From Carposina sasakii (lineage: Eukaryota; Arthropoda; Insecta; Lepidoptera; Carposinidae), in the NCBI GenBank assembly GCA_014607495.2, contig CP053160.1:6634001-6698000 (forward strand): a stretch of 64,000 bases of DNA, in the 5' to 3' direction. A program made the translations under genes and the position numbers. Below are positions 4,818-60,867 of this stretch, piece after piece. Every line of letters starts with the position of its first letter. The stretch's first letter is position 1. Below the pieces are notes generated by a model that saw only the letters and a list, made by a program, of their open reading frames with translations, searched no databases and was not told the DNA's origin.

Positions 4818-5402
4818 GCGTACAATCAATACATTACCGCCTCTGTGCTCTTTGTGATATTGTTCTGGTTGGTTAGAGTGTTTGCTCTAACCGACTTGAA
4901 TATCTAAATAGCGAAATGATTCTGCCCTTTGTAAGGCAGACGAGGTTAAAGTAATAAGAACCATCATCAAATAAATAGGTCTTCACGACATTAGAATCAT
5001 CTCCCATAAGAAAATAACTGAGGAAACTAATAGCATCACCACCACTTACAAAAATAGACAACAAAGGTATACATAATTATGTATTATCACTCTTGCTATC
5101 CTCAGGATAACTATTGTTTAGACAATTCAATGACAGTGCACAAACCGGGATGTTAGATGAATTGCTATTAAATTAGCGCAGGCTTTCATAGCTCATCATG
5201 TATTATTTCGATGTATACGCTATATTAATGTGAAGTTTCATTAAAAAGGGTTGTAAGTGGCTTCGACTAATACCTTGGGACCCTAAGTCAACCTCACTTG
5301 CCCATGGTATACTCTGCTATTTAACGAACGAGGCTCTGACGCTAAATAGCTTATAATACCTATTTTGCACGAAAACATTTCCTTGGATTCGTTAGCGGTC
5401 AA
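4818..5402 (+). repeat. Dispersed segmental duplication, copy 1
   Basis: This block reappears at 6783-7485. The shared part runs from a SINE remnant through GGTCTTCACGACATTAG and TTAAAAAGGGTTGTAAGTGG to TTTCCTTGGATTCGTTA. This copy lacks two short segments found in the other (the equivalents of about 7022-7070 and 7206-7240) and has its own CCATGGTATACTCTG. The internal promoter part of its SINE is deleted. Confidence 0.8.
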
Positions 5403-5453
5403 AGTTATCTAGGTATTTTTAAAAAGTAAACTATATCATATAAAAACTAGGAA

Positions 5454-5459
5454 TTTATT
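5454..5459 (-). terminator. Poly(A) signal AATAAA of the 157-aa gene
   Basis: TTTATT on the plus strand reads AATAAA on the coding strand, 55-60 nt after the TAG stop. Confidence 0.5.
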
Positions 5460-5514
5460 TTAAAGAAAAAGTAATAAGTAAGTACTTAAAGATAACATAT
5501 ATTTAAAACATAAC

Positions 5515-6468
5515 CTACTTAAAATTAATGTTAGAACTATAAAAAACGGGCTCCGATTCATTAAAAAGTTCATGCGTGACGTGCATAAACGATTGCAGCT
5601 TACGCCACTGCGGAGAGTCTTTGTTCAGCTGCACCTTCAGCGCGATCAACGCTTTTTTCCAGCGGTCCGTCGGACGAAGGGAGGCTGCATCAGCGGTATC
5701 GTACACCTTGATTTCCACGTAATGTGTTCCTGTGACCGACGATGTACGTCGCACCTTCCCGTTTGCGACGAGGCTGACCAGCGAGCACGTCAACTCCTCC
5801 TTCGAGGATGTAGTCGTCAATGACGTCCCCGCCTCCAACCCGAAGATGTCGTCGTTCCCTCTAGACGGCGCTGTCTTCTTTTTTGAGTCACTATAAGAAA
5901 AACAGAATAGTTTACTAACATGTACGTTACAAATATAAACATTATAACTTAAAAATAAACAGGGACATCTGTGTTTTGAAACTCTATACATACATACATA
6001 TACATAAAAATCACGCCTCATTCCCTGAGGGGTAGGCAGAGATCACAGATCTCCATTTGCTACGAACCTGACACACCTCTTTCGCTTCATCAGCTTTCAT
6101 GATATTCTTCATGCACGCTCGTCGGTTAAGGGTACTCTTGACCTGACCTTTCTCTAGAATTTCTTTAGAAACCCTATAATATGTAAGTATTTACGCACTA
6201 GGTAAGTATAATGAATAACCGTACCGGGTAATCGAACCCGAGGGTTTATCGTGACTTATGAAACATGAATTAAAATATCTTTGGAATAAACAAAGTTATT
6301 TATCACTATGGTAGGCTTGTCTTAGGAATTGAACCGAGACACCGCGTTTAGATAACAAAATGTTATTTACCTTGAACTCGGTTCCGTTGAATTCTTGCGC
6401 TTGCTTGAAGTCTTTTTCTTAGGCTGAACAGCTGCTACCACCTCATGTTCACGCTCGGAGTCAGACAT
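5515..6468 (-). CDS. Two-exon gene for a 157-residue lysine-rich protein of unknown function
   Basis: Exon 1 is 6468-6371 and exon 2 is 5890-5515. The 480-bp intron starts GTAAAT and ends CTTATAG, and splicing keeps the frame (98 + 376 nt = 158 codons with the TAG stop). The ATG at 6466-6468 opens MSDSEREHEVVAAVQPKKKT. Residues 16-38 are very rich in Lys and Ser, like a nuclear localisation segment. Residues 48-125 look folded, and WKKALIALKVQL (110-121) looks like a helix. I see no signal peptide or membrane segment. AATAAA on the minus strand lies about 55 nt beyond the stop (5454-5459). I do not recognise the family. The coordinated splice signals, intact frame, higher GC and poly(A) signal argue for a real gene. 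A small nuclear or chromatin protein is a guess from composition only. Confidence 0.72.
5991..6075 (+). repeat. Dispersed repeat in the intron (family L)
   Basis: A CATACATACAT run is followed by TCACGCCTCATTCCCTGAGG and GGCAGAGATCACAGATCTCC. The same order occurs at 29103-29180. It lies inside the intron of the 157-aa gene, and the run-on frame through it is not coding. Confidence 0.6.
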
Positions 6469-6782
6469 TTTTAGGTTCTTGCTAGACTCAGCAGATAAGT
6501 AGGTATGTACCACTTTTTCGACGAGTGAACTCGAGGATTCAAAATTAATCCGAAGAATGATGAAAAATTTAAAAAGTGTTCCAATTTATTGTAATATTGG
6601 TGTTTAAGGTAGAAAAGTCATATGTCATTACAAATAATACAAATCATAATTCATTTTTCAATTCATATCAATCGAAACCTTTGCATTACCAATATTGCTG
6701 ACGCGAGCGCACGTGTTTTAGAGATCCGTAAGTAAATATTAATCGAACCTAAGTGAATTAAATGGTTTGAAACCTAAATTTT

Positions 6783-7485
6783 ATACAATACTTTACAGCC
6801 TCTGTGGTCTAGTAGTAAGAGTTTAACTTTCTACCCGGAGGTTATGGGTTCAATTCCCACGGAGTGCTTTTTGTGAAATTGTCTCGAATGCAAAGAGCAA
6901 ACAACTTGAATATCTAAATAGCAAAATGATTCTACCCTTTGCAAAGCAGACGAGGTTAGTCATCATCATCATCACAAAGATAAATAGATCTTCACGACAT
7001 TAGAATCATCTCCCATAAGAAAATGTTATACTTATTTAATATCCATTATGTTTATCAAGTTATGAGCTCTAGATAACAGAGGAGACTAATAGCATCGCCA
7101 CCACTAACAAAAATAGATAACAAAGGTATACATAACTATGTATTATCACTCTCGCTATCCTTAGGATAACTATTGTTTAGATAATGCAATGACAGTGCAC
7201 AAACAACTAAATGAGAAAGAGCCCCAGCCAAAAAGTAACAATAACCGGGATGTTAGATGAATTGCTATTAACTTAGCGCAGGCTTTCATAGTTCATCATG
7301 TATTATTCCGATGTATACGCTATATTAATGTAAAGTTTCATTAAAAAGGGTTGTAAGTGGCTTCGACTCATACTTTGGGACCCTAAGTCAACCTCACTTG
7401 CTATTTAACGAACGAGGCTCTGACGCTAAATAGCTTATAATACCTATTTTGCACGAAAATATTTCCTTGGATTCGTTACTGGTCG
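6783..7485 (+). repeat. Dispersed segmental duplication, copy 2
   Basis: The longer partner of 4818-5402, starting with an intact SINE and extending about 500 bp beyond its tail. Because the SINE and its downstream flank are both shared, the SINE insertion predates the duplication. Confidence 0.8.
6798..6975 (+). mobile_element. tRNA-derived SINE with (ATC)n tail
   Basis: The head looks like a tRNA: GCCTCTGTGGTCTAGTAGTA carries a box A-like stretch, and GGGTTCAATTCCC about 40 nt later matches box B (GGTTCRANYCC). A non-tRNA body follows and ends in CATCATCATCATCAC. This arrangement (Pol III promoter, body, simple tail) defines a SINE. The related copy at about 4828-4960 has lost the box A-box B segment. 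It is unlikely to be a functional tRNA because no proper acceptor stem closes. Confidence 0.75.
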
Positions 7486-9350: not shown

Positions 9351-10615
9351 TTTGTGGAATAACCTGAGACAATCTGTCCAGAATTTTATCCCTACTTTAG
9401 GTAAGTAATAGTTATTTTATGTTAAAAGCATTTTCAGAACTCAATTATAAATGTAACACTATGCGGTACCTATATTTTGTAGAAAGATAAAAGTTAACCT
9501 GATAAGAAATTTAATAATTTCAAAATTGTGGTGTTCTTTTATTATTAAAATATAATTTCTGTTTTCTGTGGAATGACATGAATTTTAATTGTTGAAATTC
9601 TGATATCTTCGAGCCAATATCGTTACAGAATTGTTATTTTCTGTGGAACGACACGAGACAATCTGGTGTCTTCGAGCCAATCTGGCCGCAGAAATGTGGT
9701 AATAATTTATATTTAAAAATAATTAATGTTTTTGTGGAACGACACAAGTCAATCTGGTGTCTTCGAGCCAATCTGGTCGCAGAAATATAGTAAGCATTGA
9801 AATTTTAAAATAATTTATGTTTTCTGTGGAACGATACAAGTAATCTAGTGTCTTCGAGCCAATCTGGTCGCAGAAATGTGGTAATAATTTATATTTAAAA
9901 ATAATTAATGTTTTTGTGGAACGACACAAGTCAATCTAGTGTCTTCGAGCCAATCTGGTCGCAGAAATATAGTAAGCATTGAAATTTTAAAATAATTTAT
10001 GTTTTCTGTGGAACGATACAAGTAATCTGGTGTCTTCGAACCAATCTGGTCGCAGAAATGTGGTAATCATTAAAATAATAAAATATATATGTTTTCTGTG
10101 GAACGACATGAGGTAATCTGATGTTTTCGAGCCAATCTGGTCGCAGAAATATGGTAATAATTAAAATAATAAAAATATATTTGTTTTCTGTGGAACGACA
10201 CGAGTCAATCTGATCAGAATATCTAAGTTTGAAATTCTGGTGTCTTCGATCCTATCTGGTCACAGAAATATGGTAATAATAAAAATATATTTGTTTTCTG
10301 TGGAATGACACGAGTCAATCTGATCAGAATATCTAAGTTTGAAATTCTGGTGTCTTCGATCCTATCTGGTCACAGAAATATGGTAATAATAAAAATATAT
10401 TTGTTTTCTGTGGAACGACACGAGTCAATCTGATCAGAATATCTAAATTTGAAATTCTGGTGTCTTCGAGCCTATCTGGTCGCAGATTATTATTTAAAGA
10501 TGAGATTATATTTTTCTGTAGAATGACGAGTCGATCTGATCTAAATTTTGATAGTTGAAATAAATGTCTTCGAGTCAATCTGATCACAGATCTTTTTTTA
10601 TTTAACTGTGAAAGG
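9351..10615 (+). repeat. Tandem array of about 12 hairpin-capable units (90-92 and 108-110 bp)
   Basis: Each unit opens with TTCTGTGGAACGACACGAG, continues with GTCAATCTGGTGTCTTCGAG and closes with CCAATCTGGTCGCAGAAAT, so the ends can pair (TTCTGYG with CGCAGAA). An AT-rich linker of about 30-50 bp separates the cores. TGTGGAA starts lie near 9353, 9567, 9642, 9733, 9825, 9915, 10007, 10097, 10189, 10299 and 10409, with degenerate units near 10517 and 10607. Units at 9720-9902 and 9902-10084 form a repeated dimer. The three units from 10189 are longer through an extra ATCAGAATATCTAAGTTTG. Frames crossing the array are by-products. Confidence 0.85.
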
Positions 10616-12023
10616 CGTGAGCAATTTGGAATACAAATTTCTAGTTCTTTCTACACAGCTGATATCGTAATAGATGTTATGTTGTAATTTAATAGCTGTT
10701 CTGAATTTTAACATAAAATAACTATTACTGTTTTAAAATTACAGAAATGTAAACATGGGTGATGTGATACAATGGTGGCACGCTTCGACGAGGGAGCTAT
10801 GTAAGTCAATCAAAATTAATTGCTGTTATTGGGCACACCCAAAAATTGGGATGGTGTGCCCAATAACTTACTACTGACAATTGCTTTTATTTTATTATAT
10901 TAATGTAGATACTACTTATTATTGAGGGTAGAACAAAACCGAATACAGCGCATACTCATACAGTGTGACGCGCGTACCTATATGTTTTTTTTTATTATTA
11001 TTTCACTACGAAGAAAAGGCAAAGGAGACCAATGGCCATGTAGCCATTGTATTTTAAAAAACATCACAAGGACACGAGTATTTAATTTATTTTTAAATAA
11101 ACAAATAATTACACCAGCTCCTCCTACCGTTTCTGTATAAGTTTAAACATTATAGAATCTTACCTAGGTCTGATGTAAAGTGGAGGAAATTTTTTAACCA
11201 AATAGTATTTTTCGAAATAATTGATAGTTATATTTTGAAATAAAATAATGATAAATCGACAAGCATGACCGTGGTATTTACTATGTACAAACACGTGTGT
11301 TTACTAGGAATGAATTCATTTAATTAACTTTATTTAGACTTTACAAAGCCTGGGTACTTAGACAATGTATCATCATTTTGCATCGACATTCGTGGTCTCA
11401 ACACTCCCACCAATAGCTGTTAGACTTCATCACATGAAAAATTAAGGCTTCCTATTGGAGCAAACGTGTAAATGATGAACCCATATCGATTTGATCAAGA
11501 AATAACGTTACTTTATCTAAGCATGATGCCCATACTTAGAATAATGATTCGCTTCGCTTTGCTCCGCGAAGACCTATCATTAATCTAAGTGCCCATATTA
11601 ATAGTTTTGACATTCAAATTCTTACCATAGGCAAAATATGTCTCCAAGTAATATCTGCATACCTAGGCGCCTATCAATTTCCGAGCCCTGGGTACATCTT
11701 TGTGAGCGCATTTTACGGAGCTCTGTGCGAAAACAAATTGCATTCCTTTCCTCACGGCTACCTAGATATTGTGCCTCCTATACAAAGGGATATGATGACA
11801 AGAGTTATAAATTGTGGTGTATCCATAGTGTGGACATAGATTAGGTCGTGCAGAGAGTACGCTTTGGAAATACTTGACACATAGTTAGTTACTTACTATG
11901 TCATTGTGAACTTTAAACAGGTGAAATTGGTACGATCGGTGACCCGTTAGGAGCCAAGTTTCCAAGTTTATCACTCCAAATAAAATAACTTAATAACGTG
12001 GTTAACTATAAAAACGTGCCTAT
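10616..12023. other. Intergenic with one short perfect hairpin
   Basis: A 15-bp perfect inverted repeat (GTTATTGGGCACACC at 10825-10839, reverse complement at 10853-10867) is the only structure seen. No coding exon could be supported. Confidence 0.4.
10825..10867. repeat. 15-bp perfect inverted repeat with 13-nt loop
   Basis: GTTATTGGGCACACC and its exact reverse complement flank CAAAAATTGGGAT. It may be a short MITE remnant or a structured RNA segment. Confidence 0.6.
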
Positions 12024-12085
12024 AGGATCTTTTTCATGATTCTGCAATTATGGCAACCCATTTTGGGAACACAGTCGTATATACA
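12024..12085 (-). repeat. Family G fragment
   Basis: Its minus-strand order resembles the G copies at 13585 and 60868: a form of GGGTAGCCAGAACTGCAG next to GGATCATAAAGGAGATC. This one is diverged and truncated. Confidence 0.5.
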
Positions 12086-13584: not shown

Positions 13585-13840
13585 ACCCAAAATGAGGTAG
13601 CCAGAACTGCGAGATCACAAAAGAGATTCTACAGTCATGTTTAGTATAGTAGCGGGGCGAAATATTATTATCAATGACGGTCATCGCCTCAGCGAACGGC
13701 CCTGAGTTTCTTAGTAGACATACACGGAAGAATATGCAGGTGATGTATTCTAATGAAGCCCCGCATCAGCACAGGAAATCATGTACGGGCACAGGGGCAA
13801 AAAGAACGGGCATTCTAAAATTTACTCGGTCAAATTCGTG
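13585..13840 (+). repeat. Dispersed repeat, family G (uninterrupted copy)
   Basis: It contains AATGAGGTAGCCAGAACTGC, AGCGGGGCGAAATATTATTA, GGCCCTGAGTTTCTTAGTAG and ACACGGAAGAATATGCAGG in order. The interrupted G copy hosting the foldback element shows the same succession, so this copy acts as a related empty site (junction near 13718). Confidence 0.7.
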
Positions 13841-13980: not shown

Positions 13981-15739
13981 AACATCGGCATACAAAACAC
14001 GAACTATTTTAACCAAAATGTGTTCTCATTCAAAATACCGAACTACTTTATACGTAACGCTTTTGGAAGTTGTTAAATATTCCATTTAAGCGATTCCGAT
14101 ACGGTCGTGATAGAGAAAAAAAAATACGTGATCTACATCCTAATGGCTAAATGGCTCGGTATAGGGCCTTATGAATTAAATTACTTACGGAAATTCACCA
14201 GCGGAATTTGTAGCGGGGCCTGTTTTTATTTAATCGACGATAAAATTTTAGCCTAATTTTTCTAAATGGAATATTTTGTAATTTTTTAACCAATTAGTTT
14301 GTAGCTTGAATTGGAATCTCGGAATTGTTATTTTAAAATATTTTTTTAAGGAACCAACTCTCCAAAGAAAGTATTAAAATGTTATTCCCGCTGTATTAGT
14401 ACATTATTTAGCAAACGATCAATGGTTTAGAATCTAATATGTACCGATAAATTAAGCCACTGTCGGTAATTGCAGAACATGATAATGGGAATATTGACCG
14501 CCTAACCCTATAAAAATAAAACCTTTAACCTTAAAAATAATGCAACTTTGTTCTCGAAACGACGCCATTTTAGAAAGAGCTTACAATAAACGCTATTCTG
14601 AATGTTTTATAAGATTTATTTCGTTGTTTTCATCCAAATGTATTACCTACGAGTAAGTTCACAGCTATACCCAATGGACACATGCTGTGTAGTCTTTGTG
14701 CAAACAAGCTCGTACATAACGATAGAAAAGTATAGTTTATAGTGTGATTGACTGTATACTATCGCCGATTCAATAGATCTGTGTATCTCAATTTGATAGC
14801 AACGACACAAAGTTAGAATACTCAATACTCTCTTAGGACTAGTGAGACAGCTTAGTGCCAATTAGAGGTAACTGTTAACATTTATTTATAGATACAGAGA
14901 TTTGGCGGCGGTGGAGAGAAAATACATGTCGCGGCTTTACAATATTTGTTACATGTGTATACTGGTAAAAATAAACGTAAATGTTTTTATAGTTAGAACA
15001 TTTTACTTTAAGATTACTTTGTTTGTGATAAAGTTGAAGGAGTGTTTTTAAGACTAAATAGCTTTTTCTGTGTTGTACGACTGTTTCCGATGATTAATCT
15101 TGAACAACTGCACCCATTGGCACCTATGTTCCTTCAAAAGACAATGAATAAAAATCCTAATAAGTCAAATTCAATTATGATAAAAAAAATCGTAGCCAAC
15201 CGGCTCATTCATCATTCATTCATCTTACAATATCAACACAACATTTGCTACCTTTTTATTGTGAGATTAGGTTAGGTACGGATTACACAAAAACCTCAGC
15301 CATTTCTTTTTCTCAACCAAGATTCCCAAGACTGACTCCCAAGCATATTGACCCGGTCACGGCATTACCTACATTTTAATATAATAGCGTAATTTGTTAG
15401 ACTAAGTACACGAGTACTACTGTAATCGATGAGAAGGGAACTCTAAGGGGCCCCTAATAAATCCGCTCGGGGCCCCCGACATTAATTCTGTCAGGTCCGT
15501 ATCTTCAACCACTGATGTTTTGCCATGTTGGGGCCCGATTTATTGGCCCAATCATTCGTAAGTATGATGATGAATAACTTCAATAATTATACGGAGGAGG
15601 GTATTTCGTCGGTTGTAATGGTTTCAATTCAAAAAAGGTCCTTGTGCAGTTGACACCGCGGGGTCAACGGCTCGTGGTTTCAACCGATGAAATATCCATA
15701 ACTTATAGAACCATTTTTTGAGTAAGTACATTATGTACA
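13981..15739. other. Intergenic, nothing recognised
   Basis: AT-rich. A local GC rise at 15440-15545 (GGGGCCCCTAATAAATCC) has no coding or repeat identity that I can name. Confidence 0.4.
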
Positions 15740-15904
15740 CACGGTTGTATTACTAAAATGGGGTAGCCAAAACTGCAGGTTAACAAAGGAGATCCTTTCC
15801 ATCAATTTAAGCATAGCGGGGTCAGATGTTAATGAGAGATGTGAATGACAAGTTGTTAGCTTATCGCCTGAGGGAACGCATTTGAGTTTTAGTCGACACT
15901 AACG
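15740..15904 (+). repeat. Family G repeat, left part, split by the foldback element
   Basis: AATGGGGTAGCCAAAACTGC, AACAAAGGAGATCCTTTCC, AGCGGGGTCAGATGTTAATG and CGCCTGAGGGAACGCATTTG align with the G copy at 13585. It ends at the target duplication CACTAACG (15897-15904) and resumes at 25242. Confidence 0.75.
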
Positions 15905-16373
15905 ATGTGTGTGAAGTTAGCACCGCCATTTTGGAAATTTAAAAAAATAATAGTTGTGCTAGATTGTGCTAGGCATGTGCTGACTTGTGCCGTAAATAAA
16001 ATTTTAAAATATCAAAAAATTAAAAAGTTACAGGAAAAATAAAAAAAATATCACTAGCACCGCCATTTAGTAAAATTGATAAAATAACAAATGGATAAGT
16101 TTGTGCTAGGGCTGTGCTATACTGTGCCGTAAAGCAAATTTCGATAACGCTGATAGATTTTCAGAAAATCGCGATTGAAAAAAAATCGCAGCACCGCCAT
16201 TTTGTCAAAATCGAAAAAAAAAAAATTGCTTCGATTCTGATTAAAATGTGCTAGAATGTGCTGCAAACGAAAAATCAATATCATAGACGGTTTATGAGAA
16301 AAACAAAATTGAACATTAAAAAATGAATATGCGATTTTAACGGTTTAAATTCACTTATTTGAAAAAACAAAAA
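15905..16373 (+). repeat. Foldback terminal block, left (469 bp)
   Basis: It contains three copies of AGCACCGCCATTT (15921, 16059 and 16191 regions) and three clusters of TGTGCY spaced 10-11 bp (about 15954-15993, 16101-16127 and 16246-16263). It is complementary to 24774-25241 with, as far as I can see, only a 1-bp homopolymer difference. Confidence 0.88.
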
Positions 16374-19300
16374 ATGTGCTAACTTGTGCTAGGCTAGTCT
16401 TCTAAAACTACGTTCGAATAACGAGAATAAATGTGCAATTTTTTCTAAAAATGAAAAAACAAAATTTTTTAAAAAAAATTTTTGTTCGTACGAAGTTCCA
16501 AAAAATACCACAACTTGTGCTAGGTTTGTGCTGCAGAACGCCGAAATCCCCACTTCGATAAGTCAATGCGTTGTCGAGAAATTGCAGAAATAAAATTTTG
16601 GAACATAAAAGCGTCAAAATAACGGTCAAAATGCACTCATTTCAAAAAAACAAAATATGTGCTAACTTGTGCTAGGCTAGTCTTCTATATCTACGTTAGA
16701 ATAACGAGACTAAATGTGCAATTTTTTCTAAAAATGAAAAAACAAAATTTTTTAAAAAAAATTTTTGTTCGTACGAAGTTCCAAAAAATACCACAACTTG
16801 TGCTAGGTTTGTGCTGCAGAACGCCGAAATCCCCACTTCGATAAGTCAATGCGTTGTCGAGAAATTGCAGAAATAAAATTTTGGAACATAAAAGCGTCAA
16901 AATAACGGTCAAAATGCACTCATTTCAAAAAAACAAAATATGTGCTAACTTGTGCTAGGCTAGTCTTCTATATCTACGTTAGAATAACGAGACTAAATGT
17001 GCAATTTTTTCTAAAAATGAAAAAAACAAAATTTTTTAAAAAAATTTTTGTTCGTACGAAGTTCCAAAAAATACCACAACTTGTGCTAGGTTTGTGCTGC
17101 AGAACGCCGAAATCCCCACTTCGATAAGTCAATGCGTTGTCGAGAAATTGCAGAAATAAAATTTTGGAACATAAAAGCGTCAAAATAACGGTCAAAATGC
17201 ACTCATTTCAAAAAAACAAAATATGTGCTAACTTGTGCTAGGCTAGTCTTCTATATCTACGTTCGAATAACGAGAATAAATGCGCAATTTTTTCTAAAAA
17301 TGAAAAAACAAAATTTTTTTAAAAAAATTTTTGTTCGTACGAAGTTCCAAAAAATACCACAACTTGTGCTAGGTTTGTGCTGCAGAACGCCGAAATCCCC
17401 ACTTCGATAAGTCAATGCGTTGTCGAGAAATTGCAGAAATAAAATTTTGGAACATAAAAGCGTCAAAATAACGGTCAAAATGCACTCATTTCAAAAAAAC
17501 AAAATATGTGCTAACTTGTGCTAGGCTAGTCTTCTATATCTACGTTAGAATAACGAGAATAAATGTGCAATTTTTTCTAAAAATGAAAAAACAAAATTTT
17601 TTAAAAAAAATTTTTGTTCGTACGAAGTTCCAAAAAATACCACAACTTGTGCTAGGTTTGTGCTGCAGAACGCCGAAATCCCCACTTCGATAAGTCAATG
17701 CGTTGTCGAGAAATTGCAGAAATAAAATTTTGGAACATAAAAGCGTCAAAATAACGGTCAAAATGCACTCATTTCAAAAAAACAAAATATGTGCTAACTT
17801 GTGCTAGGCTAGTCTTCTATATCTACGTTCGAATAACGAGAATAAATGTGCAATTTTTTCTAAAAATGAAAAAACAAAATTTTTTTAAAAAAATTTTTGT
17901 TCGTACGAAGTTCCAAAAAATACCACAACTTGTGCTAGGTTTGTGCTGCAGAACGCCGAAATCCCCACTTCAATAAGTCAATGCGTTGTCGAGAAATTGC
18001 AGAAATAAAATTTTGGAACATAAAAGCGTCAAAATAACGGTCAAAATGCACTCATTTCAAAAAAACAAAATATGTGCTAACTTGTGCTAGGCTAGTCTTC
18101 TATATCTACGTTAGAATAACGAGAATAAATGTGCAATTTTTTCTAAAAATGAAAAAACAAAATTTTTTAAAAAAAATTTTTGTTCGTACGAAGTTCCAAA
18201 AAATACCACAACTTGTGCTAGGTTTGTGCTGCAGAACGCCGAAATCCCCACTTCGATAAGTCAATGCGTTGTCGAGAAATTGCAGAAATAAAATTTTGGA
18301 ACATAAAAGCGTCAAAATAACGGTCAAAATGCACTCATTTCAAAAAAACAAAATATGTGCTAACTTGTGCTAGGCTAGTCTTCTATATCTACGTTAGAAT
18401 AACGAGACTAAATGTGCAATTTTTTCTAAAAATGAAAAAACAAAATTTTTTAAAAAAAATTTTTGTTCGTACGAAGTTCCAAAAAATACCACAACTTGTG
18501 CTAGGTTTGTGCTGCAGAACGCCGAAATCCCCACTTCGATAAGTCAATGCGTTGTCGAGAAATTGCAGAAATAAAATTTTGGAACATAAAAGCGTCAAAA
18601 TAACGGTCAAAATGCACTCATTTCAAAAAAACAAAATATGTGCTAACTTGTGCTAGGCTAGTCTTCTATATCTACGTTAGAATAACGAGACTAAATGTGC
18701 AATTTTTTCTAAAAATGAAAAAACAAAATTTTTTAAAAAAAATTTTTGTTCGTACGAAGTTCCAAAAAATACCACAACTTGTGCTAGGTTTGTGCTGCAG
18801 AACGCCGAAATCCCCACTTCGATAAGTCAATGCGTTGTCGAGAAATTGCAGAAATAAAATTTTGGAACATAAAAGCGTCAAAATAACGGTCAAAATGCAC
18901 TCATTTCAAAAAAACAAAATATGTGCTAACTTGTGCTAGGCTAGTCTTCTATATCTACGTTCGAATAACGAGAATAAATGCGCAATTTTTTCTAAAAATG
19001 AAAAAACAAAATTTTTTAAAAAAATTTTTGTTCGTACGAAGTTCCAAAAAATACCACAACTTGTGCTAGGTTTGTGCTGCAGAACGCCGAAATCCCCACT
19101 TCGATAAGTCAATGCGTTGTCGAGAAATTGCAGAAATAAAATTTTGGAACATAAAAGCGTCAAAATAACGGTCAAAATGCACTCATTTCAAAAAAACAAA
19201 ATATGTGCTAACTTGTGCTAGGCTAGTCTTCTATATCTACGTTAGAATAACGAGAATAAATGTGCAATTTTTTCTAAAAATGAAAAAACAAAATTTTTTA

Positions 19301-21927
19301 AAAAAAATTTTTGTTCGTACGAAGTTCCAAAAAATACCACAACTTGTGCTAGGTTTGTGCTGCAGAACGCCGAAATCCCCACTTCGATAAGTCAATGCGT
19401 TGTCGAGAAATTGCAGAAATAAAATTTTGGAACATAAAAGCGTCAAAATAACGGTCAAAATGCACTCATTTCAAAAAAACAAAATATGTGCTAACTTGTG
19501 CTAGGCTAGTCTTCTATATCTACGTTCGAATAACGAGAATAAATGTGCAATTTTTTCTAAAAATGAAAAAACAAAATTTTTTTAAAAAAATTTTTGTTCG
19601 TACGAAGTTCCAAAAAATACCACAACTTGTGCTAGGTTTGTGCTGCAGAACGCCGAAATCCCCACTTCGATAAGTCAATGCGTTGTCGAGAAATTGCAGA
19701 AATAAAATTTTGGAACATAAAAGCGTCAAAATAACGGTCAAAATGCACTCATTTCAAAAAAACAAAATATGTGCTAACTTGTGCTAGGCTAGTCTTCTAT
19801 ATCTACGTTCGAATAACGAGAATAAATGTGCAATTTTTTCTAAAAATGAAAAAACAAAATTTTTTTAAAAAAATTTTTGTTCGTACGAAGTTCCAAAAAA
19901 TACCACAACTTGTGCTAGGTTTGTGCTGCAGAACGCCGAAATCCCCACTTCGATAAGTCAATGCGTTGTCGAGAAATTGCAGAAATAAAATTTTGGAACA
20001 TAAAAGCGTCAAAATAACGGTCAAAATGCACTCATTTCAAAAAAACAAAATATGTGCTAACTTGTGCTAGGCTAGTCTTCTATATCTACGTTCGAATAAC
20101 GAGAATAAATGTGCAATTTTTTCTAAAAATGAAAAAACAAAATTTTTTAAAAAAAATTTTTGTTCGTACGAAGTTCCAAAAAATACCACAACTTGTGCTA
20201 GGTTTGTGCTGCAGAACGCCGAAATCCCCACTTCGATAAGTCAATGCGTTGTCGAGAAATTGCAGAAATAAAATTTTGGAACATAAAAGCGTCAAAATAA
20301 CGGTCAAAATGCACTCATTTCAAAAAAACAAAATATGTGCTAACTTGTGCTAGGCTAGTCTTCTATATCTACGTTCGAATAACGAGAATAAATGCGCAAT
20401 TTTTTCTAAAAATGAAAAAACAAAATTTTTTTAAAAAAATTTTTGTTCGTACGAAGTTCCAAAAAATACCACAACTTGTGCTAGGTTTGTGCTGCAGAAC
20501 GCCGAAATCCCCACTTCGATAAGTCAATGCGTTGTCGAGAAATTGCAGAAATAAAATTTTGGAACATAAAAGCGTCAAAATAACGGTCAAAATGCACTCA
20601 TTTCAAAAAAACAAAATATGTGCTAACTTGTGCTAGGCTAGTCTTCTATATCTACGTTAGAATAACGAGAATAAATGTGCAATTTTTTCTAAAAATGAAA
20701 AAACAAAATTTTTAAAAAAAAATTTTTGTTCGTACGAAGTTCCAAAAAATACCACAACTTGTGCTAGGTTTGTGCTGCAGAACGCCGAAATCCCCACTTC
20801 GATAAGTCAATGCGTTGTCGAGAAATTGCAGAAATAAAATTTTGGAACATAAAAGCGTCAAAATAACGGTCAAAATGCACTCATTTCAAAAAAACAAAAT
20901 ATGTGCTAACTTGTGCTAGGCTAGTCTTCTATATCTACGTTCGAATAACGAGAATAAATGTGCAATTTTTTCTAAAAATGAAAAAACAAAATTTTTTAAA
21001 AAAAATTTTTGTTCGTACGAAGTTCCAAAAAATACCACAACTTGTGCTAGGTTTGTGCTGCAGAACGCCGAAATCCCCACTTCGATAAGTCAATGCGTTG
21101 TCGAGAAATTGCAGAAATAAAATTTTGGAACATAAAAGCGTCAAAATAACGGTCAAAATGCACTCATTTCAAAAAAACAAAATATGTGCTAACTTGTGCT
21201 AGGCTAGTCTTCTATATCTACGTTAGAATAACGAGAATAAATGTGCAATTTTTTCTAAAAATGAAAAAACAAAATTTTTTAAAAAAAATTTTTGTTCGTA
21301 CGAAGTTCCAAAAAATACCACAACTTGTGCTAGGTTTGTGCTGCAGAACGCCGAAATCCCCACTTCGATAAGTCAATGCGTTGTCGAGAAATTGCAGAAA
21401 TAAAATTTTGGAACATAAAAGCGTCAAAATAACGGTCAAAATGCACTCATTTCAAAAAAACAAAATATGTGCTAACTTGTGCTAGGCTAGTCTTCTATAT
21501 CTACGTTCGAATAACGAGAATAAATGTGCAATTTTTTCTAAAAATGAAAAAAAAAATTTTTTAAAAAAAATTTTTGTTCGTACGAAGTTCCAAAAAATAC
21601 CACAACTTGTGCTAGGTTTGTGCTGCAGAACGCCGAAATCCCCACTTCGATAAGTCAATGCGTTGTCGAGAAATTGCAGAAATAAAATTTTGGAACATAA
21701 AAGCGTCAAAATAACGATCAAAATGCACTCATTTCAAAAAAACAAAATATGTGCTAACTTGTGCTAGGCTAGTCTTCTATATCTACGTTCGAATAACGAG
21801 AATAAATGCGCAATTTTTTCTAAAAATGAAAAAACAAAATTTTTTTAAAAAAATTTTTGTTCGTACAAAGTTCCAAAAAATACCACAACTTGTGCTAGGT
21901 TTGTGCTGCAGAACGCCGAAATCCCCA
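16374..21927 (+). repeat. Left array, about 19.6 units of 283 bp
   Basis: Units start ATGTGCTAACTTGTGCTAGG at 16374 and recur every 282-284 bp. Diagnostic variants are TTCTAAAACTACG in unit 1 only, GACTAAATG in units 2, 3, 8 and 9, AAATGCGC in units 4, 10, 15 and 20, and CTTCAATAAG in unit 6. Units 2-6 and 8-12 carry the same variant order, revealing a six-unit (1,698-bp) duplication. The last unit stops at CGAAATCCCCA (21927). Confidence 0.92.
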
Positions 21928-24773
21928 AGCACAAGTTAGCACATATTTTGTTTTTTTGAAATGAGTGCATTTTGACCGTTATTTTGACGCTTTTATGTTC
22001 CAAAATTTTATTTCTGCAATTTCTCGACAACGCATTGACTTATCGAAGTGGGGATTTCGGCGTTCTGCAGCACAAACCTAGCACAAGTTGTGGTATTTTT
22101 TGGAACTTCGTACGAACAAAATTTTTTTTTAAAAATTTTGTTTTTTCATTTTTAGAAAAAATTGCACATTTATTCTCGTTATTCTAACGTAGATATAGAA
22201 GACTAGCCTAGCACAAGTTAGCACATATTTTGTTTTTTTGAAATGAGTGCATTTTGACCGTTATTTTGACGCTTTTATGTTCCAAAATTTTATTTCTGCA
22301 ATTTCTCGACAACGCATTGACTTATCGAAGTGGGGATTTCGGCGTTCTGCAGCACAAACCTAGCACAAGTTGTGGTATTTTTTGGAACTTCGTACGAACA
22401 AAAATTTTTTTTAAAAAATTTTGTTTTTTCATTTTTAGAAAAAATTGCACATTTATTCTCGTTATTCTAACGTAGATATAGAAGACTAGCCTAGCACAAG
22501 TTAGCACATATTTTGTTTTTTTGAAATGAGTGCATTTTGACCGTTATTTTGACGCTTTTATGTTCCAAAATTTTATTTCTGCAATTTCTCGACAACGCAT
22601 TGACTTATCGAAGTGGGGATTTCGGCGTTCTGCAGCACAAACCTAGCACAAGTTGTGGTATTTTTTGGAACTTCGTACGAACAAAAATTTTTTTTAAAAA
22701 ATTTTGTTTTTTCATTTTTAGAAAAAATTGCACATTTATTCTCGTTATTCGAACGTAGATATAGAAGACTAGCCTAGCACAAGTTAGCACATATTTTGTT
22801 TTTTTGAAATGAGTGCATTTTGACCGTTATTTTGACGCTTTTATGTTCCAAAATTTTATTTCTGCAATTTCTCGACAACGCATTGACTTATCGAAGTGGG
22901 GATTTCGGCGTTCTGCAGCACAAACCTAGCACAAGTTGTGGTATTTTTTGGAACTTCGTACGAACAAAAATTTTTTTTTAAAAATTTTGTTTTTTCATTT
23001 TTAGAAAAAATTGCACATTTATTCTCGTTATTCTAACGTAGATATAGAAGACTAGCCTAGCACAAGTTAGCACATATTTTGTTTTTTTGAAATGAGTGCA
23101 TTTTGACCGTTATTTTGACGCTTTTATGTTCCAAAATTTTATTTCTGCAATTTCTCGACAACGCATTGACTTATTGAAGTGGGGATTTCGGCGTTCTGCA
23201 GCACAAACCTAGCACAAGTTGTGGTATTTTTTGGAACTTCGTACGAACAAAAATTTTTTTTAAAAAATTTTGTTTTTTCATTTTTAGAAAAAATTGCACA
23301 TTTATTCTCGTTATTCGAACGTAGATATAGAAGACTAGCCTAGCACAAGTTAGCACATATTTTGTTTTTTTGAAATGAGTGCATTTTGACCGTTATTTTG
23401 ACGCTTTTATGTTCCAAAATTTTATTTCTGCAATTTCTCGACAACGCATTGACTTATCGAAGTGGGGATTTCGGCGTTCTGCAGCACAAACCTAGCACAA
23501 GTTGTGGTATTTTTTGGAACTTCGTACGAACAAAAATTTTTTTTTAAAAATTTTGTTTTTTCATTTTTAGAAAAAATTGCACATTTATTCTCGTTATTCT
23601 AACGTAGATATAGAAGACTAGCCTAGCACAAGTTAGCACATATTTTGTTTTTTTGAAATGAGTGCATTTTGACCGTTATTTTGACGCTTTTATGTTCCAA
23701 AATTTTATTTCTGCAATTTCTCGACAACGCATTGACTTATCGAAGTGGGGATTTCGGCGTTCTGCAGCACAAACCTAGCACAAGTTGTGGTATTTTTTGG
23801 AACTTCGTACGAACAAAAATTTTTTTAAAAAAATTTTGTTTTTTCATTTTTAGAAAAAATTGCGCATTTATTCTCGTTATTCGAACGTAGATATAGAAGA
23901 CTAGCCTAGCACAAGTTAGCACATATTTTGTTTTTTTGAAATGAGTGCATTTTGACCGTTATTTTGACGCTTTTATGTTCCAAAATTTTATTTCTGCAAT
24001 TTCTCGACAACGCATTGACTTATCGAAGTGGGGATTTCGGCGTTCTGCAGCACAAACCTAGCACAAGTTGTGGTATTTTTTGGAACTTCGTACGAACAAA
24101 AATTTTTTTTAAAAAATTTTGTTTTTTCATTTTTAGAAAAAATTGCACATTTAGTCTCGTTATTCTAACGTAGATATAGAAGACTAGCCTAGCACAAGTT
24201 AGCACATATTTTGTTTTTTTGAAATGAGTGCATTTTGACCGTTATTTTGACGCTTTTATGTTCCAAAATTTTATTTCTGCAATTTCTCGACAACGCATTG
24301 ACTTATCGAAGTGGGGATTTCGGCGTTCTGCAGCACAAACCTAGCACAAGTTGTGGTATTTTTTGGAACTTCGTACGAACAAAAATTTTTTTTAAAAAAT
24401 TTTGTTTTTTCATTTTTAGAAAAAATTGCACATTTATTCTCGTTATTCTAACGTAGATATAGAAGACTAGCCTAGCACAAGTTAGCACATATTTTGTTTT
24501 TTTGAAATGAGTGCATTTTGACCGTTATTTTGACGCTTTTATGTTCCAAAATTTTATTTCTGCAATTTCTCGACAACGCATTGACTTATTGAAGTGGGGA
24601 TTTCGGCGTTCTGCAGCACAAACCTAGCACAAGTTGTGGTATTTTTTGGAACTTCGTACGAACAAAAATTTTTTTAAAAAAATTTTGTTTTTTCATTTTT
24701 AGAAAAAATTGCACATTTATTCTCGTTATTCGAACGTAGTTTTAGAAGACTAGCCTAGCACAAGTTAGCACAT
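21928..24773 (-). repeat. Right array, about 10 units of 283 bp, inverted
   Basis: The same unit in reverse orientation. From the outside inward the variants are TTCTAAAACTACG (unit 1), GACTAAATG (unit 3), AAATGCGC (unit 4) and CTTCAATAAG (units 1 and 6). Units 3-7 match left-arm units 3-7 in order. Confidence 0.92.
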
Positions 24774-25241
24774 TTTTTGTTTTTTCAAATAAGTGAATTT
24801 AAACCGTTAAAATCGCATATTCATTTTTTAATGTTCAATTTTGTTTTTCTCATAAACCGTCTATGATATTGATTTTTCGTTTGCAGCACATTCTAGCACA
24901 TTTTAATCAGAATCGAAGCAATTTTTTTTTTTCGATTTTGACAAAATGGCGGTGCTGCGATTTTTTTTCAATCGCGATTTTCTGAAAATCTATCAGCGTT
25001 ATCGAAATTTGCTTTACGGCACAGTATAGCACAGCCCTAGCACAAACTTATCCATTTGTTATTTTATCAATTTTACTAAATGGCGGTGCTAGTGATATTT
25101 TTTTTATTTTTCCTGTAACTTTTTAATTTTTTGATATTTTAAAATTTTATTTACGGCACAAGTCAGCACATGCCTAGCACAATCTAGCACAACTATTATT
25201 TTTTTAAATTTCCAAAATGGCGGTGCTAACTTCACACACAT
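24774..25241 (-). repeat. Foldback terminal block, right (468 bp)
   Basis: Reverse complement of the left terminal block, ending CTTCACACACAT at 25241, immediately before the second CACTAACG. Confidence 0.88.
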
Positions 25242-25490
25242 CACTAACGACATGCACGGAAGGAGATGCAGTTGATGTACTCTGACAAAGCCTCACAACA
25301 AACAGCGCTTGTTTTATATGACTCAATGCCAGCATAAAATCCAGTATAGCAACTGATGTACTGAACTGTAATGGTTGCAATATACTCTGTGCCAAGTTCC
25401 TTAAACTGAAAAAGTAAATTTGGAAATAATAACGATTCCTTGAAATCTCTGAATTGATTGATCGTTATCATATCGTGAGCCATGTCGTTT
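25242..25490 (+). repeat. Family G repeat, right part, with an exon-like segment on the minus strand
   Basis: ACATGCACGGAAGGAGATGC and TGATGTACTCTGACAAAGCC continue the G alignment to 13720-13770. On the minus strand, TTTACTTTTTCAG at about 25408 is a good splice acceptor. The following frame begins ELGTEYIATITVQYISCYTG and is open for about 60 codons to the foldback junction. This could be a captured exon or a chance frame, and I do not recognise the protein. Confidence 0.5.
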
Positions 25491-25671: not shown

Positions 25672-26021
25672 TTGCACGTAAGCGTAGACGTACACGTACC
25701 TCTGAGTTTAATGTATAGAACTGTCACCACTTGACGTCTATGCTTACATCTACGCATACGCATCCGGTCTGCTCGTGCCTATACAGTTCTATACATTACA
25801 ACTCAGAGGTACGCATACGTCTACGCTTACGTGCACGCACACGCATCCGGTGTGCTCGAGCCTTTAACGTATAGAACTGTCACCGCTTGACGTCTATGCT
25901 TACATCTACGCATACGCATCCGGTCTGCCCGTGCCTATACAGTTCCATACATTACAACTCAGAGGTACGCATACGTCTACGCTTACGTGCACGCACACGC
26001 ATTCGGTGTGCTCGAGCCTTA
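25672..26021. repeat. Palindromic and tandem repeat of CGTAGACGTA-type sequence
   Basis: A block of about 155 bp beginning GTATAGAACTGTCACC (25713) is repeated from about 25869 with few changes. Inside it, GTACACGTACCTCTGAG (about 25690) is inverted as CTCAGAGGTACGCATACG (about 25803 and 25961), so the region is both a tandem duplication and an inverted repeat. TACGCATACG-like words give it unusual CpG density for this window. Confidence 0.7.
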
Positions 26022-26750: not shown

Positions 26751-27462
26751 GTTCCTAAGCACTATAGATAGACGAAGCAGACTAGTGTGCTGTACACGTC
26801 CGACTAAAAATCGGTCCGATAGGAAAAACAAAGATATAGCAAATATGTACCTGAGCATTGCTTGCATCTCTGCTAAATTAAAAAAATTAAAGGTATCTAC
26901 ACTCTACTACACAAGGGTTAATAGTTTATAAGTATCTGTAGCATTTAATAACATGGGATGGGATGAAAGACATATACAGGAGTACGGAGAAAGACATAGA
27001 CTACATTCTGTAGTTCACGCATATGAAGTCACGGGCATCAGTAGTCATTCATAAAGTTAAGTTTGTTAAAAAAAATTAAGCAGGTATCATCTCGTATTAA
27101 GATTATATAATCTGATACTATTAACCCCATGTAGCAAAATCCAACTTGTTACTTGCTATGTCTCCTACTCGCATGCTATGCTACACCGTCTTTAGAAAAC
27201 CGACCGTATTATTTATTGTCGGCTGTACACAGTCTGGGTGTGTAGCCAGCTTTAGTCATCAGTGCACAGTCTATTCACGGAACTATTACTATCCCATTGA
27301 GGGATCGCCCACCACCGGGCCCTATACCCTCCGCTGACCCTCGGATCTGCCTACTCATGATCACGAACACAAGACACTACAGTCGCAACGAGAAGCCAGA
27401 TCCAAGCACCTAGCATGCAACCATAAATACATAGCTGCTAATCCGAAAACCAATTAAAATTT

Positions 27463-27507
27463 TAATCGACATATGTTTCGCCAACACCCGTGGCATCATC
27501 AGGATTA
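27463..27507 (-). ncRNA. Hammerhead ribozyme, intact core (HHR1)
   Basis: On the minus strand: TAATC (stem I), CTGATGA, GCCA/TGGC stem II with loop CGGGTGT, GAAA, a two-pair stem III (AC/GT around ATAT), GTC, then GATTA closing stem I. All conserved core bases (CUGANGA, GAAA, GUH) are present. Predicted self-cleavage falls between 27468 and 27467. Spacing is identical to the small-stem-III hammerheads described in Penelope-like elements. Confidence 0.8.
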
Positions 27508-27566
27508 GTTTTCCATGTTAGTTCTATCTACCGAACCAACTAACTAACAACTAAAACCAATGTATT

Positions 27567-27598
27567 GCCACGGGTGTTGGCGAAACATATGTCGATTA
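27567..27598 (+). ncRNA. Hammerhead ribozyme remnant lacking CTGATGA (HHR2)
   Basis: The stem II strand GCCACGGGTGTTGGC, GAAACATATGTC and GATTA are present. The upstream stem I strand and the CTGATGA box were lost at the inversion junction, so it should not cleave alone. Confidence 0.7.
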
Positions 27599-27989
27599 AA
27601 ATTTTAATTGGTTTTCGGATTAGCAGCTATGTATTTATGGTTGCATGCTAGGTGCTTGGATCTGGCTTCTCGTTGCGACTGTAGTGTCTTGTGTTCGTGA
27701 TCATGAGTAGGCAGATCCGAGGGTCAGCGGAGGGTATAGGGCCCGGTGGTGGGCGATCCCTCAATGGAGATTTGAACTTCCGAATAGTGACGCCTGATAC
27801 AATTCAATATTTAACGAAGTGTAGCATCACTAAACAGGCAAAATTATACATCAGACTAACAGAAGCTCAACGTATTGCAAAACAAAACGTGTGGTTTAAC
27901 CAACAATGTAAGTACCACATCTATAAAGGCAATACATTGGTTTTAGTTGTTAGTTAGTTGGTTCGGTAGATAGAACTAACATGGAAAAC

Positions 27990-28034
27990 TAATCCTGATG
28001 ATGCCACGGGTGTTGGCGAAACATGTGTCGATTA
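27990..28034 (+). ncRNA. Hammerhead ribozyme, intact core (HHR3)
   Basis: TAATC, CTGATGA, stem II GCCA/TGGC, GAAAC, loop ATGT, GTC and GATTA are all present, with predicted cleavage after C28029. Stem I can extend: GAAAAC (27984-27989) pairs with GTTTTC (28047-28052) across a 12-nt one-sided loop. Confidence 0.8.
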
Positions 28035-28257
28035 AAATTTTAATTGGTTTTCGGATTAGCAGCTATGTATTTATGGTTGCATGCTAGGTGCTTGGATCTG
28101 GCTTCTCGTTGCGACTGTAGTGTCTTGTGTTCGTGATCATGAGTAGGCAGATCCGAGGGTCAGCGGAGGGTATAGGGCCCGGTGGTGGGCGATCCCTCAA
28201 TGGAGATTTGAACTTCCGAATAGTGACGCCTGATACAATTCAATATTACTATCCTTC

Positions 28258-29180: not shown

Positions 29181-29689
29181 TGATCCATTTTAAACAAAAC
29201 CCAGGCATATAACCGTTATTTTAAATTAGTAGATTGTCTCCAAAGTATGTACTTCCATACGCGGTAGGTACTTTTGCACGTGTTTGCTATATAAAAATAT
29301 CTCCACGTATACATATCCACACGAACAAATTTGTTAAATAATCCACGTGTGCCTACTAAAAACCTATGGCCGCTTAACCTACCGATGGCTATAATAGATA
29401 TGAGGCGACATCCTATTACCTTTAGTGGTTACAATTTGCTTTTACCGATCAAATGAAAGGACCCATCAAGTGGGTGGTATATCGAAAACCCATTGGAGTA
29501 ATTTAAGGTAGAATTCACCTACTCCGAACACCTGGAATAGGTGAATATATAGAGAATAATACAGTTCGTATCATAATCAAGTTTTCACAATGATATTTAA
29601 TTATGTTTGTCTGATAACTTGAGAGGATATCAGGCGATAAGTTATCAAATTGTCACTGTTTTTTTTACATCTGCTAAGCTGACTTGCTA

Positions 29690-29760
29690 AACGTAGCTGT
29701 AAGATCTCCTTTGTGATCCTGTAGTTCTGGCTTCCTTATTTTGGAACACAGCCATGTTAT
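29690..29760 (-). repeat. Family G fragment
   Basis: GATCTCCTTTGTGATCCTG and AGTTCTGGCTTCCTTATTTT are the complement of the G words at 60868-60915. Confidence 0.6.
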
Positions 29761-33270: not shown

Positions 33271-33292
33271 GGGCTAATAAAGGTAAATTGTT

Positions 33293-33544
33293 AGTTCGGT
33301 AGTTAGAACTAACATGGAAAACTAATCCTGGCGATGCCACGGGTGTTGACGAAACATATGTCGATTAAAAATTTTCATTGGTTTTCGGATTAGCAGCTAT
33401 GTATTTAATATTATGGTTGCATGCTAGGTGCTTGGATCTGGCTTCTCGATGCAACAGTAGTGTGTTGTGTTCGTGACCATGAATCGACAGATCCGAGGGT
33501 CAGCAGAGGGTGTAAGGCCCGGTGGTGGGCGACCCCTCAATGGA
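33293..33544 (+). mobile_element. 252-bp Penelope-like ribozyme repeat
   Basis: It is flanked by the perfect 10-bp duplication GTAAATTGTT (33283-33292 and 33545-33554). It is a single unit in plus orientation, from TTCGGTAGTTAGAAC to GGGCGACCCCTCAATGGA, the same end as in the other copies. The ribozyme core is mutated. The 62-codon frames on either strand are not genes. Confidence 0.8.
33323..33367 (+). ncRNA. Hammerhead ribozyme with inactivating changes (HHR4)
   Basis: The box reads CTGGCGA instead of CTGANGA (invariant A6 replaced by G), and stem II closes GCCA against TGAC, giving one mismatch. Stem I (TAATC/GATTA), GAAAC and GTC persist. Predicted inactive. Confidence 0.7.
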
Positions 33545-33554
33545 GTAAATTGTT

Positions 33555-38971: not shown

Positions 38972-39148
38972 GAGATACAAATCCTATGGGTGCGCCCACC
39001 ACCGGGCCCTACACCCTCCACTGACCCTCGGATCTGATAACTCATAATTGCGACAACAGGCACTTGCACTAACTACAATCGCCATGAGAAACCAGACCCC
39101 GAGCACCTAGCATGCAAGACGATACATTGCACCATCCGAAATTAAAAA

Positions 39149-39193
39149 TAATCTACATATGTTTCGCCAACAACCGTGGCATCCTCAGGATTA
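39149..39193 (-). ncRNA. Hammerhead ribozyme, variant but permitted core (HHR5)
   Basis: The minus strand gives TAATC, CTGAGGA (position 7, G for T, allowed by CUGANGA), stem II GCCA/TGGC with loop CGGTTGT, GAAAC, loop ATAT, GTA (allowed by GUH) and GATTA. Activity is plausible but the cleavage triplet GUA differs from the other copies. Confidence 0.72.
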
Positions 39194-44941: not shown

Positions 44942-46610
44942 CTATTTCCTTGCCGCCTCATGGAGTAAAGTCATAATTTTAACCTTGACACCCAGCTTCT
45001 CATTTTCAGGAACCTTTTTCAGCTTGGTTGACAGAGATAGTAGAAATAACGTATCCTCATCCTGCTGAAAGACATCACGTTTACATTTATGTGTGTATTC
45101 ATTTACATCATTTTCCTCGGAATCGTGTCGTCTTTTCCTTTTCTTTTCCTTTTTAGTTCCTTGGTATAGTGGATCTTCAGGGTCATCAGATAATTCTCTA
45201 ATCTCTAATTCTAAAGGGGGAGACATTTCTTTTATGTCTACAACTCTCTGAAGGAATTGTAGCTGCTGGAAATACATGTATTCACTCTTACGTGGTCCTG
45301 CGTCGATGTTATATCTCAGTGATCTCTTTCTGCTCAGCTCTCGTGTGTAGCAACCTCGGATGCCTTTCCATCTCTTTTGTAAAATGATTCCTGAAACAAA
45401 TTGTATAAATTTTAAATCATCAATGGTTAACTATAGAATTTAATTGGGGCTTAATTGACAGACAATCAAAACTTTTAGGGCTTTACTAATAATAAACTTT
45501 ATACCTCATAGCTATATCCACCTATATACAGTTTAATTTGATAGATATTTCATATATTTTGCTGTATAATGAGGATGTGACTTAATACTAGCACAGTTAA
45601 TTTTCAACTCAGACAGATTAGTATCTAGTCTAGTTAGGACTTTTTATTTTTTTGTAATTCCAGTGATAGTGACACCGCCCCCTAACTAGCATGAATGCGA
45701 AGGCGAAAATCGCAGATTGCTTGTATCTGCTACTTTTTCGTTTTACTTAAAAGGCATTCTCAAAGGAATTTGTCTTTTCGACGCGAACATGGTGCTTTTT
45801 TCGCTGTCGCTATAACGTTACTGACTGATATAAGAACGTTATCATTTTTTCTTGACATGCGAGTATTTGACATTATTTACCATTATATGAATTGCTTCTA
45901 GGCTTCAACATATCTTAACGTTATGAGAAAAGAACCTTTAAATTCTCTAAAAAAAACCTACATAAAAGGTATTTCCTGAATAATAACGTCCAAATGCACT
46001 TACCGGGCATTGCAATCTAGTTAAAAAGGAATTTCCATGACGAATTGACGTTTCCATGCAAATAAATTAAAAAAGATTAACCTATTGTGGACCTACCACA
46101 ATTTTTTGAAATGCATCGTAGGAGATATGAACCATCGAGCTTGTTTATCAAAAATTTGTTTTTAACTTAAGTTGGTCAAGTCAAATTACTTCTGTGAATT
46201 AGACTCACAAAGCAATCAAGAAGAAAAGATAAAAAAAATACAATGTTATTAGCTGTCTAAAATAAGAACGTAGCTATTTACCAATTTAAGGCAGTAACAT
46301 TCGTTTCATAGAGTAACTTCTATGCCTGATTTCGGAACTAACATCTTTTGTAAGTATGCAGTAACACAGACAATGCATATACCTAGTAACTAGCGCCATC
46401 ATTCAGGAACTATGTGGAGAAACGTACTAAGTACTCACCGAGCTCTCTTTTTTCAGAATTACTCATATTTTCCCCGGCAAACACATTCACTACATTCTCC
46501 CAACTTTTTTTCTTCATATCTTTAATACCATACTCCGCTGTAGCACTATCCCAAATCGCGGGCTGCCGTTCTATCTCTTCAATAAACCTTACAGTGTCAA
46601 AGCCGTCCAT
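44942..46610 (-). CDS. MADF-BESS domain DNA-binding protein (Adf-1-like), two exons
   Basis: Exon 1 (46610-46439) and exon 2 (45390-44942) are joined across a 1,051-bp intron with donor GTGAGT and acceptor TTTGTTTCAG. The frame is kept (172 + 449 nt) and gives 206 residues ending at TAG. Residues 7-104 form a MADF domain: FIEEIERQPAIWDS, the KSWENV helix, QKRWKGIRGCYTRELSRKR and a YFQQLQFL C-terminal helix. An acidic/basic linker holds KKEKKRKRR (137-145), a likely nuclear localisation signal. Residues 168-203 fit a BESS motif (DEDTLFLLSLSTKLKKVP, then VKIMTLL). MADF domains bind DNA like Myb/SANT and BESS mediates protein contacts, so a nuclear transcriptional regulator is likely. The start ATG has A at -3 and G at +4. 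The target genes cannot be inferred. Confidence 0.9.
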
Positions 46611-52964: not shown

Positions 52965-53195
52965 TGGCCGCGACTTCGTCCGCGTGGACTGCAGAAAAAA
53001 CAAAATGTTGAAGTTATCCGGGATAAAATATTTTTTACCGGGATGATAAGTAGCCTATGTGTTAATCCAGGGTTAACTAACTCCATACCAAACTTAATTA
53101 AAATAGCTCGAGCCGTTTTTACGTAAAAGAGTAACAAATATCCATCCATCCATCCATCCTTACTTACAAACTTTCGCGTTAATAATATTAGTAGG
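52965..53195 (+). repeat. Dispersed repeat, family D
   Basis: GGCCGCGACTTCGTCCGCGT, GATAAGTAGCCTATGTG, GCCGTTTTTACGTAAAAGAG and TTTCGCGTTAATAATATTAG in order, with a CATC run (53142-53158). Confidence 0.75.
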
Positions 53196-60809: not shown

Positions 60810-60867
60810 TATAAGATCGTAACTAATGACGTACATACCTACATATATGCACATACACAAGGCAGTG

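Follow-up and report, generated by a model that had tools for sequence, protein, structure and literature searches.

What kind of structure occupies positions 15905-25241 of the 64,000-nucleotide stretch of Carposina sasakii DNA analysed here (the window), and what could its long, repeated arms be for? We report that it is an inserted foldback element of 9,337 bp, gene-free, and we describe its ends, its arms and the short motif that runs through them before weighing which enzyme might move it.

Boundaries and insertion of the element

The features on which the description rests are as follows, with positions in the window and strand where one applies (TSD, target-site duplication).

15897-15904: left TSD CACTAACG; 6-bp alternative ACTAAC at 15898-15903
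15905-21927 (+): left arm, 6,023 nt
15905-16373 (+): left terminal block, 469 bp
15919-15931 (+): 13-bp box AGCACCGCCATTT adjoining the left end
15954-15992 (+): first motif cluster, four TGTGC[TC] spaced 10, 11 and 10 bp
16374-21927 (+): left array, 19 complete 283-bp units plus one cut short at 179 nt
21928-24773 (-): right array, with 10 starts of the 283-bp unit, in the opposite orientation to the left array
24774-25241 (-): right terminal block, 468 bp
25242-25249: right TSD CACTAACG; 6-bp alternative ACTAAC at 25243-25248
13589-13774 (+): diverged host-repeat copy without the insertion, outside the element (empty-site paralogue)
12012-12072 (-), 13589-13774, 15736-15796, 29686-29757 (-): dispersed short repeat (AAATGGGGTAGCCAGAACTGCAGG...GGAGAT)
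53190-53248 (-), 58852-58905, 60853-60928: further copies of the same dispersed short repeat

The initial annotation had described an 8-bp direct repeat just outside both ends and exact inverted termini, and both are present: CACTAACG flanks the element on either side and ATGTGTGTGAAG stands at both ends. The duplication starts with C and finishes with G, so that the base outside each terminus reads G, and the same letters could be read as a terminus GATGTGTGTGAAG next to the shorter, 6-bp duplication ACTAAC. We prefer the 8-bp reading because the 6-bp one requires two extra chance matches; a 7-bp duplication is excluded by the letters. One given pair of 8-base stretches would match by chance with p of about 3e-5 at this base composition.

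The flanks resemble a dispersed repeat with further copies in the window, and the element seems to have inserted into one of these copies. The empty site available for comparison is a diverged paralogue, not an allele. When the flanks are joined with one TSD copy, they align continuously with it at a score of 138. With 71 nt of the element substituted for the right flank, the score is 98, and 200 shuffles gave a mean score of 28 and a maximum of 51. Because the alignment with this diverged copy at 13.6 kb runs through the insertion point, 15905-25241 is an insertion and not an assembly fold. Most of the TSD falls in a 9-base gap of the alignment, and the paralogue therefore favors neither 8 nor 6 bp. 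The locus thus has what is expected of a foldback element, i.e., a TSD with insertion at a site that is empty elsewhere (here the gapped paralogue) and long inverted repeats with internal tandem repeats. A plain satellite array is ruled out by the defined ends and the TSD.

Other repeats lie in the same window. Two 156-bp tandem copies, 96-97% alike, are found at 25707-26020, about 460 bp right of the element, and a smaller structure of inverted and direct repeats occupies 27294-28247; its arms (27294-27569 and 27928-28203, 276 nt) are 99.6-100% complementary, its direct copies lie at 27566-27811 and 28002-28247, and relatives of it occur at 33290-33545 (about 90%) and 38993-39193 (about 77%). 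Adjacent tandem arrays of 91-bp and 110-bp units with common sequence are located at 9637-10494, and within 4889-7484, stretches of 4889-5400 recur about 2.0-2.1 kb rightward, 90-98% alike.

Arms, units and the inward motif

Aligned with the outermost 3,315 nt of the left arm, the right arm (3,314 nt) is 99.52% identical; of the 3,316 columns, 13 are mismatches and 3 are gaps. The inverted repeat extends beyond the ends, and the whole right arm is mirrored in the left one. The terminal blocks have the sizes first assigned to them and their sole difference is one A in a poly-A run. A reversal of the arrays at 21927/21928 with no spacer had also been proposed, and the arrays do meet there directly. 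As tandem arrays, they extend over 16338-21927 (19.8 copies) and 21928-24809 (10.2 copies). When the arrays are cut at one motif, a unit starts 20 times on the left and 10 times on the right. Units are 282-283 nt long except for the innermost of each side: the left one breaks off at 179 nt, so that 19 units are full there, and the right one measures 299 nt. The earlier count of about 30 near-identical units agrees with 29 full units that are on average 99.05% alike (minimum 97.17%), with the truncated L20 left out and R10 trimmed to 283 columns.

Six variable columns sort the units into types which, read inward, run abbcdedbbcdfffcdfdfg on the left and hdbcdedfdd on the right. Counted from the ends, units 3-7 have the identical type string in both arms, the order differs at units 2 and 8-10, and unit 1 of each arm has two bases in common that are absent from every other unit. 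Local alignment of 19 left units (L20 dropped) with the 10 right units supports co-linearity (p 0.012, 5,000 shuffles; p 0.55 in the control with the right arm reversed). With columns 80-112, a homopolymer tract, omitted, the test over the 8 units 2-9 at the best of offsets 0-10 was not significant (p 0.12), and that over units 3-7, which were picked post hoc, gave p 0.006. When units 2-9 are compared, mismatches are lowest in the end register (0.50 per pair) and next lowest in the register shifted by six (0.62), and shuffled orders did equally well in 12% of trials. We regard the co-linearity of the arms from the ends as suggestive only: it suggests, and does not prove, that the arms were formerly co-linear inverted copies and that a segmental duplication later took place within the left arm.

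A finer repeat is found inside both the terminal block and the 283-bp unit. The block consists of three diverged repeats of about 137 bp (element positions 14-150, 151-285 and 286-421), clearly related, with z values of 12.3, 10.5 and 6.2 (200 dinucleotide shuffles). In the 283-bp unit, motifs stand in two pairs at distances of 140 and 143 bp from each other, and the halves of the unit show a weak mutual likeness (z 4.6). Likeness to the three block repeats in turn is z 3.3, 3.2 and -0.0 for the first half and z 3.6, 5.8 and 2.8 for the second; BLAST at lax settings also connects the block with the unit (best E 5e-6). The terminal block and the 283-bp unit are likely akin, and the unit might be a 140+143 dimer, a weaker reading that draws mainly on motif spacing. 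The whole element, terminal block plus 283-bp arrays, is probably one hierarchical array, an organization absent from the initial annotation.

The motif itself, TGTGCTA, occurs 105 times in the window, where 7.64 copies are expected by chance, and 101 of these copies are inside the element. All 65 copies on the plus strand are in the left arm and all 36 on the minus strand in the right arm, i.e., every one points inward. The relaxed form TGTGC[TC] is found 89 times in the left arm and 51 times in the right, and within clusters its spacing is 10 or 11 bp in 73 of 73 cases. Because the units are copies of one another, the fair sample takes each of the five repeat types once, and there the spacing is again 10 or 11 bp (8/8). 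Along the left arm, the clusters follow each other every 141.3 +/- 2.4 bp (range 128-147; 43 clusters including the terminal block), and the right arm has 24. The terminal block contains 9 motifs, against a mean of 0.32 and a maximum of 3 in 2,000 shuffles. Five diverged repeat types retain the motif, its one-turn spacing and its direction. The 13-bp box AGCACCGCCATTT is present three times per arm, always in the terminal repeats (mirrored in the right block), and nowhere else in the window; it does not vary among these three repeats (p 0.007, longest-run test) and contains a GGTGCT core in the opposite direction. Its CCGCCAT core we take to be similar to YY1/Pho sites.

Coding content and relatives

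The absence of a transposase, claimed from the start, is borne out: the longest stop-to-stop frame overlapping the element has 86 codons and extends into the right flank, and the longest one wholly within it has 83. The accompanying view of a foldback insertion that needs a transposase in trans is supported, as none is encoded in the element. Among four frames outside the element that were searched with Pfam, three had no domain; in the fourth, 44942-45430 (-), a BESS domain and part of a MADF domain were recognized, and its two matches at E <=0.001 are to proteins of the nymphalid butterflies Euphydryas editha and Vanessa cardui (43% and 42% identity), in keeping with a lepidopteran host. Rfam returned no family at the gathering score over the window.

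That the termini match no nameable family is in line with exact-sequence searches of viral contigs and paper texts, which produced no related element. The patterns GAAGTTAGCACCGCCATTTTG and TTGTGCTAGGTTTGTGCTGC had no hit each in viral contigs, nor had AACTTGTGCTAGGCTAGTC in prokaryote genome contigs, searches from which the window's own or very near records were possibly excluded, and four element sequences had no match in paper texts. TGTGCTAGNNTGTGCTAGG and TTAGCACCGCCATTTTG were found in 1 and 5 viral contigs, respectively; all six loci have at most three TGTGCTA and no ATGTGTGTGAAG, and we take them as chance. In the literature, we found no account of this element or of a lepidopteran foldback element with such arms; Repbase and most subscription journals were outside the search, and it may be catalogued there. 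This is apparently a new foldback family, known here from one copy in the window. The tandem 9-kb transposable element of the peppered moth was set aside as a different structure.

Several known systems share parts of this architecture, as described in the excerpts of the cited papers on which the comparison draws. In Muta of Aedes aegypti, all 14 families have TSDs of 8-9 bp, and 10 of the 12 families with long terminal inverted repeats (TIRs) have short subterminal tandem repeats of 9-15 bp (PMC5225508). Muta1, termed a type 2 Foldback by its authors, has non-autonomous derivatives with a common TIR; it differs from our element in encoding a transposase, in a terminal palindromic motif of which we see none here, and in TIR length (145-151 bp in Muta1 and Muta5 vs 3.3-6.0 kb) (PMC5225508). 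Tetris of Drosophila virilis resembles the element in having no ORF, an 8-9 bp TSD in its three complete copies, TIRs with tandem repeats of about 220 bp inside a flanking domain, and a 37-bp stretch common to the repeat and that domain. Unlike in the element, its arms are separated by an inner domain and a middle domain, its TIRs reach 1,735 bp at most, and its repeats are 87% alike within complete copies vs 99% here (PMC4079207). Galileo, of the P superfamily, also has long, internally repeated TIRs, transposase THAP sites within the repeats (putative in our element) and TIR-only copies (PMC3688188, PMC3573991), whereas its TSD is 7 bp, its longest TIRs are about 1.26 kb and its internal repeats number two or three (PMC3573991). 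Within the TIR repeats, the Galileo THAP domain binds at three sites, one of them footprinted, and the authors suggest that specificity may come from many sites (PMC3688188). Tm1 of root-knot nematodes has foldback-like TIRs of tandem repeats, a TSD of 8-10 bp in 45 of 53 cases and a Phantom-type transposase in one member; in contrast to our element, its 7-bp ends are asymmetric, its TSD is mostly 9 bp and its repeat unit is a short motif of about 14 bp (PMC3169594). gadMor-hAT-1784 of Atlantic cod likewise has TIRs of 167-169-bp tandem repeats and no ORF, with a TIR of only about 600 bp and a place in hAT (PMC12368964). For arthropod Mutator-like elements (MULEs), the longest TIR given in a survey is 1,193 bp according to its text and 1,527 bp according to its Table 1 (PMC13359780), so that arms of 3.3 and 6.0 kb are longer than those of Galileo, Tetris and arthropod MULEs as given in these sources. 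The architecture is known, and the length and regularity of the arms appear unusual against the literature compared.

Source of the transposase and use of the arms

We consider it fairly probable that the element is a non-autonomous cut-and-paste foldback transposon whose arms are arrays of putative transposase-binding sites, the enzyme being most likely Mutator-like (Muta/Phantom). It is the analogy with Galileo and Muta that leads us to treat the motifs as putative secondary sites of the enzyme and to class the element among non-autonomous derivatives. A foldback element would have inserted into a copy of the dispersed host repeat; a transposase made elsewhere would use the TGTGCTA-type motif as a secondary site, and the arms would be site arrays that help the enzyme locate and pair two distant ends, with the 13-bp box near each end possibly being an additional protein-binding site. 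The arms may have grown by multiplication, the terminal trimer first and then the dimeric 283-bp unit, the latter expanded through unequal exchange, together with inverted copying or gene conversion between the arms. Within this reading, a supplier of the Muta/Phantom kind has roughly an even chance, and hAT, P/Galileo or another superfamily takes the remaining share. Mutator-like elements have TSDs of 8-11 bp and long TIRs (PMC6446971); the preferred 8-bp TSD and the 3.3-kb TIR agree with this, neither being superfamily-specific. In a 2026 survey, the first three bases of most arthropod MULEs are G/C-rich, a tendency and not a strict definition (PMC13359780), and here they are ATG (GAT in the 6-bp reading). 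The termini contain nothing pointing to Mutator.

The same architecture and use of the arms could also be combined with a hAT or P/Galileo-type transposase as the mover, which we think rather unlikely. Both hAT and P elements produce 8-bp duplications, as is preferred here over the 6-bp alternative, and the TA in the middle of the TSD matches the Buster-type hAT consensus; against this, the second base of hAT ends is A and the fifth is G, and our termini read ATGTG (or GATGT). Merlin was rejected as the GGNNC end is absent. The cod hAT derivative with its ORF-free repeated TIRs (PMC12368964) and the internal repeats of Galileo TIRs favor hAT and P/Galileo, respectively, while Galileo copies have 7-bp duplications (PMC3573991) and the letters here fit 8 or 6 bp. 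A quite different use of the arms, which we find improbable, would be as a hairpin, in which a transcript over 21928 pairs with itself along as much as 3.3 kb and the double strand enters small-RNA silencing, or mainly as the seed of a satellite. A loop-free inverted repeat of 3.3 kb is what a hairpin needs, and Tetris repeats gave rise to a satellite in Drosophila virilis (PMC4079207), but the motif, spacing and direction kept in diverged repeats are left unexplained by either.

Long near-identical arrays are difficult to assemble, and the central inversion or the unit number could be an assembly error, possibly with a loop lost. An artefact at 21928 had been named at the outset as one outcome that would overturn the foldback; checked from the sequence, mirror identity at the center (21927/21928) is only 11/60, which makes a fold-back read artefact unlikely. 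The join links different unit phases with no shared base, unlike a repeat collapse, both ends and the duplications are present, the paralogue favors an insertion, and the arms differ in unit order at units 2 and 8-10. We judge such an error to be very improbable, slightly more so than the hairpin or satellite seed.

Returning to the arms as arrays of transposase sites, the aspect that bears most on mechanism is the single-array structure with its helically phased motif. As to why foldback arms are internally repeated, a binding-domain test is reported, in the parts of the literature compared, only for Galileo, with three sites (PMC3688188). The motif, spacing and direction shared by five repeat types make the idea of a binding-site array testable with one synthetic cluster. 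A bolder and less likely reading is a new lepidopteran foldback family in which the entire element, ends included, would be one hierarchical array of repeats of about 141 bp, each with putative transposase sites in helical phase. If this is true, each arm would bring dozens of synapsed sites into transposition (43 clusters on the left and 24 on the right), and the repeat length, which is near that of a nucleosome core, would set the packing of the transposase complex.
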